Source: Paracoccaceae bacterium (lineage in GTDB: Bacteria > Pseudomonadota > Alphaproteobacteria > Rhodobacterales > Rhodobacteraceae). Taken from it: a stretch of 48,118 nucleotides of DNA. Under the pieces are notes generated by a model. It made no database searches and was not told where the DNA came from. It saw only the letters and a list, made by a program, of their open reading frames with translations. The stretch is taken from NCBI GenBank assembly GCA_020629115.1, contig JAHDDY010000002.1:47420-95537 (forward strand), written 5' to 3'. This document shows positions 5,409 to 40,876 of the stretch, one piece after another (position 1 is the first letter of the stretch; every line of letters begins with the position of its first letter). Position numbers and translations under genes: made by a program.

Positions 5409-5502
5409 CGTTACCCTCGGGCCTGTCCCGAGGGTCCACGTGATGGCCCGAGCGATCCGTCGAGCGGAGAGATGGATAATCGGAACGAGTCCGATTATGA
5501 CG
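5409..5502. repeat. Two-module palindromic element between parvulin gene and argJ
   Basis: Two perfect hairpins face each other. The first has 9-bp arms at 5413-5421 and 5427-5435 with a 5-base loop. The second has 9-bp arms at 5476-5484 and 5490-5498 with a 5-base loop, preceded by ATGG and followed by GACG. The same flank-arm-loop-arm-flank geometry occurs in hisZ and after kdsB. Because a long open frame starts inside it, this element could mislead start-site prediction for argJ. Confidence 0.85.
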
Positions 5503-23115: not shown

Positions 23116-24609
23116 ATGGCAAGGAAGACCGGCAAACCCCAGCGGCCCAAGGCACAATTGCCCCGCGGCTTCGACGATTCGTTCGGCGAGGACGTGCTGG
23201 TGCGGCAGCGGATGCTGTCCCGCATCGCGGAGGTGTACCACCTGCACGGCTTCGATCCGCTGGAGACCCCCGCCATCGAGACGGTCGAGGCGCTGGGCAA
23301 GTTCCTGCCCGACGTGGACCGGCCGATGGGCGGCGTGTTCGGCTTCCAGGACGAGGACGAATCGTGGCTGGCCCTGCGCTACGACATGACGGCCCCGCTC
23401 GCCCGGGTGGCCGCGCAGTACCGCAACGACCTGCCCTCCCCCTATCGCCGCTACGCCATGGGGCCGATCTGGCGGAACGAGAAGCCGGGGCCGGGGCGCT
23501 TCCGGCAGTTCTGGCAATGCGACGCCGATACGGTCGGCACCTCGACCGTGGCGGCGGATGCCGAGATCTGCGCGATGCTGGCCGATGCGTTGCAGGCGGC
23601 GGGGATCGCGCGCGAGGATTTCGTGATCCGCATCAACAACCGCAAGGTTCTCAACGGGATACTGGAGGAAGCGGGCATCGCGTCCGAGGAGGAGGAAGCC
23701 CAGCGCGGCATTGCGCTCCGCGCCATCGACAAGCTCGACCGGCTCGGCGAGGACGGCGTGCGTGCGCTGCTCGGGGAGGGCCGCAGGGACGAGAGCGGCG
23801 ACTTCACGAAGGGCGCGAACCTGTCCGCCGAACAGGCTGATCTCATCATGAATTTCGTTGCCGCCGAGCGCGCGGACGGGGCCGCGACCTGCGCGCGCCT
23901 GCGCGAGCTGGTCGGCGCGTCCGGGCAGGGCCGCGAAGGGGTGGATGAGCTGGAGACCATCGCGGAACTGCTGGAGGGGCAGGGCTACCGCGCGCCGCTC
24001 GCCAGGATCGACCCTTCGATCGTGCGCGGCCTCGCCTATTACACCGGCCCTGTCTACGAGGCCGAGCTGGCCTTCGAGATCGTCGACGAGAAGGGCGAGC
24101 GGCGGCAGTTCGGGTCGGTCGCGGGGGGCGGGCGCTACGATGACCTCGTGATGCGCTTCACCGGCCAGCGCACCCCGGCGACCGGCGTCTCCATCGGCGT
24201 CGACCGCCTGCTCGCCGCCCTGCGCGCGCGGGGAGGGCAGGAGGCGAAGGCGGCGCGTGGCCCCGTCGTCGTGCTCGCCCCGGAGCGGGACCGGATGGGC
24301 GACTATCAGGCCATCGTCGCGGAACTGCGCGGCGCGGGCATCCGGTCGGAAGTCTTCATGGGCGGCGGAACGAACATGGGCAAGCAGTTGAAATACGCCG
24401 ACAAGCGCCGCGCGCCCCTCGCCGTCATCGTCGGCTCGCAGGAGCGCGAGGCGGGAACGGTGCAGATCAAGGACCTCGTCCTTGGCGCGAAGCTGGCCGG
24501 CGAGATCGACTCGAATGAGGAGTGGAAGGCCCAGCCCGCCCAGCGGGAAGTGCCGCGCGGCAGGGTGCTGGCCACCGTCCGCGCGATGCTGGACCGGCCG
24601 GACGCATGA
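23116..24609 (+). CDS. hisS: Histidyl-tRNA synthetase
   Basis: A class II aminoacyl-tRNA synthetase, 497 residues. Motif 1 lies around [18 protein letters not shown]. Motif 2 is [13 protein letters not shown] with the preceding [13 protein letters not shown]. The histidine-specific motif is [12 protein letters not shown], and motif 3 is near [15 protein letters not shown]-terminal anticodon-binding domain ([22 protein letters not shown]...) is complete. The start at 23116 gives [19 protein letters not shown], typical of the alphaproteobacterial form. The stop overlaps the hisZ start. Confidence 0.96.
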
Positions 24610-25889
24610 TGTCGCCCGACCTCGATCCCGGCACCCGCGCCGCCCTCGACGCGCTCGACGCGACCCTGCTGGCGCGGCTCGGCGGGGCGGGGTGGGCGCA
24701 TGTGGAGCCGGGGCAGATCCTCGACGCCGAGACGCTGCTCGACCTCTACGGCGAGGACGTGCGCGGGCGGGCCTTCGTGTTCGACGGACCGTCGGGCGAC
24801 CTGTGCCTGCGCCCCGACCTGACGCTGTCCATCTGCCGGTATCACGTCACCCATGCCGCGGCGGAGGGCGAGGCGCGCTACCTCGCCGCCGGGCCGGTCT
24901 TCCGCCGTCCCACCGCGTCCTTCGACGGCGCCGGAAAGCCGTCACACCCGGGCTTGACCCGGGTATCCGGCGGCGCGGAACCATGGACCCCCGGGTCAGG
25001 CCCGGGGGTGACGAGAGAGCCGGTTCAGGCTGGGCAGTTCCGGCAGATCGGCTGCGAGTGGTTCGGCGGGGCGGACGCGGCGGCCATCGACGCGGATATC
25101 TTCGCGCGGACGCAAGGGGCGCTGCTGGAGGCGGGCTGCACCGTCGAGGTGACGACCGGGGATCTGGGCATCCTCTTCTCCCTCATCGACGCGGCCCCCA
25201 TCCCCGACCGCTGGCGGGCGCGACTAAAGCGCCATGTCTGGCGGCCCCATCGGTTCAGGGCGCTGTTGCACGAACTGTCCGAGGGGCGCGCGGACGAGGC
25301 GGGGCGGCTGGCCTTCCTGAAGGCGCTCGGCGGCCTCGCGCCGGAGCAGGCGCGCGGGGCGGTGGCGCACATGCTCGACCTGTCGGGCACGGTGCATGTG
25401 GGCCTGCGCACCCATGACGAGATTTCCGAACGGTTCCTGGAACAGGCCGAGGACGCCCAGGCCCACCCCCTCCCGTGCGAGATCGTGGCCGCCATCGAGG
25501 CGGCGGCGGCGCTGAAGGCGCCCTGCGCCGACGCGCTGGAGAGCCTGCACGCCATCGCCCGCGAAACGGGCCTCGCCCTCGGCCCGGCGCTGTCGCGGTT
25601 CGAGGCGCGCATGGCGGCGCTGGAGCGGCAGGGGATCGACGCGGCGATGCTGCCCTTCGACGGGGATTTCGGGCGCAACCTCGAATACTACGACGGATTC
25701 GTCTTCGAGATCCTCGACCGCGACACCGCCGCAGGGGGAGACCGCCGGGCGGCCCAGCTCGCCGGGGGCGGGCGCTACGATTCGGTCCTGCCCGCCGCCG
25801 CGCGGGCGTTCGGCGCGGCGGAATGCGCCGCGCGAGGGGCCGTCGGCGCGGCGCTGCGACCGGAGGCGATCCTGTCGACCAGGCGATAA
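24606..25889 (+). CDS. hisZ: ATP phosphoribosyltransferase regulatory subunit HisZ with in-frame palindromic insertion
   Basis: The HisS-like regulatory partner of short HisG, which catalyses the first step of histidine synthesis. It has 427 residues. The catalytic-core fold is retained ([45 protein letters not shown]-like [10 protein letters not shown]). Between [13 protein letters not shown] and QFRQIG, about residues 111-137 are encoded by the two-hairpin repeat at 24940-25013. Homologues normally pass from the first segment to the second through a short loop, so this is an in-frame insert in a surface loop and the gene stays open. The ATG overlaps the hisS stop (a second ATG follows at 24609). 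hisG does not follow, unlike many relatives. Confidence 0.93.
24940..25013. repeat. Two-module palindromic element inserted within hisZ
   Basis: The left module has flank CGTC (24940-24943), arms ACACCCGGG and CCCGGGTAT around loop CTTGA, with one mismatched pair. The right module has flank ATGG (24983-24986), perfect 9-bp arms 24987-24995 and 25001-25009 around loop TCAGG, and flank GACG (25010-25013). The two modules are inverted to each other. The element is translated without a stop into a Pro/Gly/Ser/Thr-rich peptide. Confidence 0.9.
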
Positions 25890-40794: not shown

Positions 40795-40876
40795 CTTCTG
40801 CCCCGGACTCGATCCGGGGCCTTTCGCAGTTCGGCGCATCGTTGCAATAGTCCCCGGATCGAGTCCGGGGCAGAAG
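40795..40876. repeat. Perfect 25-bp inverted repeat made of nested palindromes
   Basis: Arms 40795-40819 and 40852-40876 are exact reverse complements, separated by 32 bases. Each arm itself contains CCCCGGA-5-TCCGGGG. It fills the gap between two convergent genes and could form a hairpin in either transcript. The sequence is a different family from the element in hisZ, but the architecture of paired short palindromes is shared. Confidence 0.92.

Follow-up and report, generated by a model that had tools for sequence, protein, structure and literature searches.

A palindromic repeat translated in frame within hisZ is assigned by sequence to the CGTC-REP dimers

Described repeat systems and the element in hisZ

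REPs that carry a CGTC tag were surveyed in 2013 (Di Nocera, De Gregorio, Rocco 2013, PMC3733652) and are described there as mainly alphaproteobacterial, as occurring inside reading frames, and as lacking a known transposase. Each unit in that description comprises the CGTC tag, a stem of 8-9 bp, a loop of 4-5 nt and an unpaired tail that mostly fits CCA; the first two stem pairs are A-T 'almost invariably', and the units are found predominantly as head-to-head dimers. Both CGTC and GTAG REPs are listed in the survey within reading frames of several species, with more than half of the intragenic REPs being dimers or groups that code for 20-30 residues, and many REPs are argued to act as RNA elements. 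The same source places RPE-6 and RPE-4 of Rickettsia conorii in its CGTC-1 and CGTC-4 families, respectively. Extended RPE-4 inserts are described elsewhere as sitting in solvent-exposed parts of proteins (PMC3767692).

The element described here was found in a Paracoccaceae bacterium (draft assembly GCA_020629115.1), in a stretch of 48,118 nucleotides that was analysed as a whole and is called the window below. It consists of two inverted hairpin units, 74 nt in total, that lie within the hisZ reading frame (Table 1). Its 29-nt arms (24940-24968 and 24985-25013) are separated by 16 nt and are 86% complementary, and the two units together are able to form a single extended hairpin. The fold has a z-score of -5.58 when calculated as DNA and reaches -56.8 kcal/mol (z -6.31) as RNA, with none of 200 shuffles performing equally well in either case. 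A preliminary description had reported a palindromic two-hairpin element translated in frame as about 27 residues (111-137). Both the palindrome and the in-frame coding hold, but translation from the ATG at 24606 assigns 25 residues (codons 112-136) to the element.

Table 1. Positions of the features discussed (window coordinates unless a locus or contig is named)
Feature	Position	Strand	Remarks
hisZ, ATP phosphoribosyltransferase regulatory subunit	24606..25889	+	427 codons plus stop; start overlaps the hisS stop codon
CGTC-REP head-to-head dimer (by sequence)	24940..25013	+	74 nt; in frame; codons 112-136
REP unit A	24940..24969	+	CGTC tag 24940-24943; from sequence
Unit A stem	24944-24952 with 24958-24966	+	9 bp, one mismatch at second pair
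Unit A loop and tail	24953-24957; 24967-24969	+	loop CTTGA; tail CCG; from sequence
Spacer between units A and B	24970..24983	.	14 nt; short class, also seen in a few other dimers of the genome
REP unit B, inverted	24984..25013	-	CGTC tag appears as GACG 25010-25013
Unit B stem	24987-24995 with 25001-25009	-	
Unit B loop and tail	24996-25000; 24984-24986	-	5-nt loop; tail CCA
Possible left copy of 9-nt target duplication	24930..24938	+	GCCGGAAAG; 1 mismatch to the collinear L052 9-mer
Possible right copy of 9-nt target duplication	25029..25037	+	GCTGGGCAG; 2 mismatches to the collinear L052 9-mer
murU with in-frame REP dimer	L009:1244-2050 = C190:3989-4795 (source genome)		95-nt dimer
Heparinase II/III-like gene with in-frame REP dimer	L194:1501-1576, C145 (congener G068)		

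On the basis of its sequence, the hisZ element is a CGTC-REP head-to-head dimer. It shares with the REPs of the survey the tag, the 9-bp stem, the 5-nt loop, a CCA-like tail, the head-to-head heterodimeric arrangement and the occurrence of dimers in frame, and it differs from them in host and in target genes, which here are hisZ and murU. Units A and B each carry one mismatch to our strict monomer pattern. The first stem pair is A-T in both, and the second is C-G in unit B and a C/A mismatch in unit A; this mismatch and the CCG tail of unit A depart from the norm for CGTC REPs. Among the matches listed, other genomic copies have either T-A or C-G at the second pair, and most end in CCA. The assignment is made at the level of the CGTC super-family, for which CGTC-2, -3 or -4 are candidate families.

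The preliminary description had also drawn a parallel with Rickettsia and had called the case notable. The parallel is apt, in that RPE-4, RPE-6 and RPE-7 are likewise palindromic, in frame and located in loops, which are described as solvent-exposed (PMC3767692). However, the Rickettsia elements belong to another genus with another base composition, and their insertions are common to orthologues of several species. Kinship between these elements and ours would follow from the family placement in the 2013 survey. The locus is less exceptional than first thought given the intragenic REPs already on record; the kind is known in related bacteria, and this new case differs in its host genus and target genes. 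Open-licence literature, covered by titles and abstract openings with supplements outside, yielded no account of the element in hisZ or in Neomegalonema.

REPINs and GTAG REPs that are moved by RAYT transposases resemble the hisZ dimer in that two inverted REPs act as one unit (PMC3733652). The hisZ dimer nevertheless differs from RAYT-mobilised REPINs in carrying CGTC instead of GTAG, and a search of the source genome with the PF01797 transposase profile returned 0 matches, in line with the survey's report of CGTC REPs without a transposase. This profile finds matches in 3 of the 14 genomes of the genus.

Copies across the genome and their placement relative to genes

Searching the source genome at the DNA level with the element gave 23 rows, several of which are the two strands of one site. 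A strict monomer pattern matched 47 times (control 0) and a loose one 156 times (control 3), and two further variants gave 72 and 90 matches (control 0 each). The element therefore recurs across the genome, and these copies rule out a chance palindrome in a native HisZ loop. At least 161 monomers were placed at at least 99 sites, 62 of which hold two monomers and 37 a single one; among the matches listed, every two-monomer site has the +- arrangement.

Genes were called with a codon-usage gene finder trained on hand-picked genes of the window, and 88.5% of the window was called as coding. Among the matches listed, 88 of 99 sites are intergenic, 7 overlap a predicted gene at its upstream edge and 4 lie inside genes. 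For the edge cases, each translation listed has a Met after the element. Two candidate genic insertions (C260:1533 and C59:20205) were dropped as lone matches with three mismatches, which were read by eye as native protein sequence. This leaves two convincing genic sites, one in hisZ and one in murU. Each is read in frame, and the phase is the same for the two. The count is a lower bound, because an out-of-frame copy that breaks a gene could pass as intergenic. The occurrence of copies inside reading frames is thus established for at least two genes of this genome, and the idea of many genic copies was rejected, with 2 of 97 sites genic among the matches listed. Random placement would give two or fewer genic sites of 97 with a binomial probability of ~2e-86; insertions in genes are selected against or avoided.

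The strict pattern is far less frequent in the 13 congeners, with no match in six genomes, one in three, and 3, 5, 6 and 9 in the others. The genomes nearest by HisZ contain 1 (G072) or 0 (G061, G071 and G066) matches, compared with 47 here, although the pattern is tuned to the subtype of the source genome and under-counts other subtypes in congeners. Examination of 23 of 26 congener matches gave 27 sites, 24 intergenic and 3 inside genes, and two of these three were dropped as lone matches with four mismatches; the remaining one is the in-frame dimer of G068 (Table 1).

The second genic insertion of the source genome lies in murU, whose product has NF045697 and NF045761 as best models, both below cut-off, and MurU-type nucleotidyl transferases as best PDB sequence matches, and it is 41 residues longer than the homologue L237. 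The insert is missing in 11 congeners that match on both sides of the site, and the empty loop could be read out in 9 of them; of the other genomes, G072 has a copy truncated close to the end of its contig, while G062 gives a weak match only. The dimer in the heparinase II/III-like gene of congener G068 sits between the N- and C-terminal Pfam domains of the protein, in a phase that by translation differs from that in hisZ. No close orthologue of this gene that could reveal an empty site was found within the genus.

The window holds a further CGTC-REP dimer at 5410-5501 (92 nt, intergenic), flanked by two predicted genes on the + strand. A strong inverted repeat at 40795-40876 (RNA z -9.87) lies between convergent predicted genes; its GC-rich core is similar, it has no GTCA/CGTC tag, and it is perhaps a two-way terminator or a member of another repeat family.

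The hisZ insertion, its empty site in relatives and HisZ constraint

The codon-model gene call at hisZ spans 24606-25886. The product matches PF13393 (E 8e-23), and the NCBIfam HisZ models (among them NF008953, E 5e-74, and TIGR00443) align with it over two stretches and score under their full-length cut-offs. The frame is open across the whole insert, without a stop or frameshift. All 14 genomes of the genus yielded a HisZ match, the named congeners being 'uncultured Neomegalonema sp.' MAGs, and in the 13 other genomes the match falls into two pieces that skip approximately residues 105-138 of the query. In a family sample with HisZ matches in 57 of 61 genomes (source genome counted in), none of the matched pieces from the other genomes spans residues 114-136.

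The segment from VFRR to QIG is 49 residues long here and 14-18 residues long in 114 of 118 homologous loci (16 in 99 loci, 14 in 8, 17 in 3, 15 in 2 and 18 in 2), a count in which four loci are unmeasured and some genomes are present in both collections. At this place the nearest congener has 21 residues, whereas this protein has VFRRP, then 39 residues, then 10 residues. The net gain in HisZ is 33 residues (99 nt), which corresponds to the 74-nt element plus ~25 nt of flank; the exact junctions are not fixed because the closest relative is only ~82% identical in HisZ. Judged from these alignments, the insert is present in one genome only among those compared, and no homologue was found with an unrelated sequence of the same length at this loop. 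The absence from relatives anticipated in the preliminary description was thus borne out.

An AlphaFold2 model of HisZ, built from a 42-row alignment (mean pLDDT 85.3), places the insert between predicted strands 89-101 and 144-154, in agreement with its proposed location in a loop. Residues 114-131 have pLDDT values below 50, and the insert is predicted to be a disordered loop of HisZ. Foldseek retrieved structures of HisZ and HisRS (query TM 0.45-0.57 among the matches listed). We take the beta-hairpin that bears the insert to correspond to class II motif 2. HisZ is described as a catalytically inactive HisRS paralogue that activates HisG and mediates inhibition by histidine (PMC10795190). 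A single HisG was found in the genome (PF01634 and TIGR00070 match), and the long-form C-terminal HisG domain gave no match in it, which indicates the short form. This gene (L250, C261:24234-24725) lies on another contig, and hisZ follows hisS.

Outside the insert, dN/dS between this HisZ and the homologues L052-L056 is 0.083-0.143, and among L052-L056 themselves it is 0.070-0.163 (one pair saturated). Against L057, the value is 0.255 for this HisZ and 0.073-0.203 for L052-L056; synonymous sites are close to saturation in these comparisons. Relative-rate counts reveal no consistent excess in this hisZ lineage. Residue 141 is Gln here and Arg in 40 of 41 relatives. Because the rest of hisZ is constrained like its relatives, HisZ probably still works, as the preliminary description had suggested from the open frame.

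We hypothesize, with a probability of roughly 85%, that a CGTC-type REP dimer from the large genomic population was copied into hisZ after the lineage split from the sequenced congeners, adding a net 99 nt (33 codons) without a stop. The target would have been the loop of the beta-hairpin that matches motif 2 in histidyl-tRNA synthetase, whose fold is ancestral to that of HisZ. HisZ would tolerate the insert as a disordered loop and would continue to serve the short-form HisG. The insert would be neutral or nearly so, and this tolerance may explain why it survives among genic insertions that selection mostly removes. The Arg to Gln change at residue 141 and the dN/dS of 0.255 against L057 count against this explanation. 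The loss of a nearly invariant loop Arg, together with the highest dN/dS of any pair computed, might indicate that hisZ is decaying, in which case the insertion damaged the gene and the frame has stayed open by luck for a short time. We consider such decay improbable, since hisZ has acquired neither a stop nor a frameshift, the other dN/dS values and the rate counts provide no consistent sign of it, and the HisG present is of the type activated by HisZ in published biochemistry (PMC10795190).

The dimer as a copied unit and other possible roles of the insert

Fifty dimers were laid out, 40 of which measure 85-94 nt. The hisZ dimer groups with the 72-nt dimers C203, C108, C127 and C218 and the 73-nt dimer C16, and all six have a shortened spacer. 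Because this spacer is common to several dimers, copying of whole dimers appears to be the best explanation for the shared internal deletion, the alternative being separate deletions. The phase shared by the hisZ and murU inserts is a weak signal. Over the 50 dimers (of 62 two-monomer sites) included in the count, open frames per strand number 31/32 for phase 1, 32/28 for phase 2 and 17/14 for phase 0, and 49 of 50 are open in at least one frame.

The two 9-mers that might represent a target duplication around the hisZ insert (Table 1) mismatch one another at 3 of the 9 positions. The murU site has no clear target duplication. Duplications of ~9 nt, if true, would suggest movement by a conventional transposase and not by RAYT. 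For CGTC REPs, the 2013 survey gives no transposase (PMC3733652). A more elaborate proposal holds both that the dimer is an active mobile unit that makes such duplications and that the longer motif-2 hairpin, along with the Arg loss, alters histidine sensing or HisG activation, so that the insert is not neutral; we give this combination little credence. The excess of copies over the four nearest relatives (47 versus 0-1, strict pattern) and two genic insertions that can be compared with empty sites make insertion junctions and the rules of loop tolerance testable. The hisZ case shows what a former tRNA synthetase motif can absorb.

Alternatively, the insert could act at the nucleic-acid level, with the mRNA hairpin tuning expression of hisZ and downstream genes, as the calculated folding energy and the published argument for REPs as RNA elements (PMC3733652) might suggest. 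This role seems improbable as well, since the murU and intergenic copies have no evident link to a single pathway. A repeat chimera is conceivable in a draft of 304 contigs, but is very improbable: the element is just 74 nt long, its sequence at hisZ is distinct from that of the other copies listed, and it lies in an open frame, with normal hisZ on either side, inside a contig of 110,629 bases.

Among the longer dimers, eight of 88 nt (L198, L199, L202, L206, L210, L213, L219 and L227) have similar flanks and spacer and carry, for example, a 'ggcatgtcttgacacacgtgag'-like flank, as if they were part of a longer repeat.
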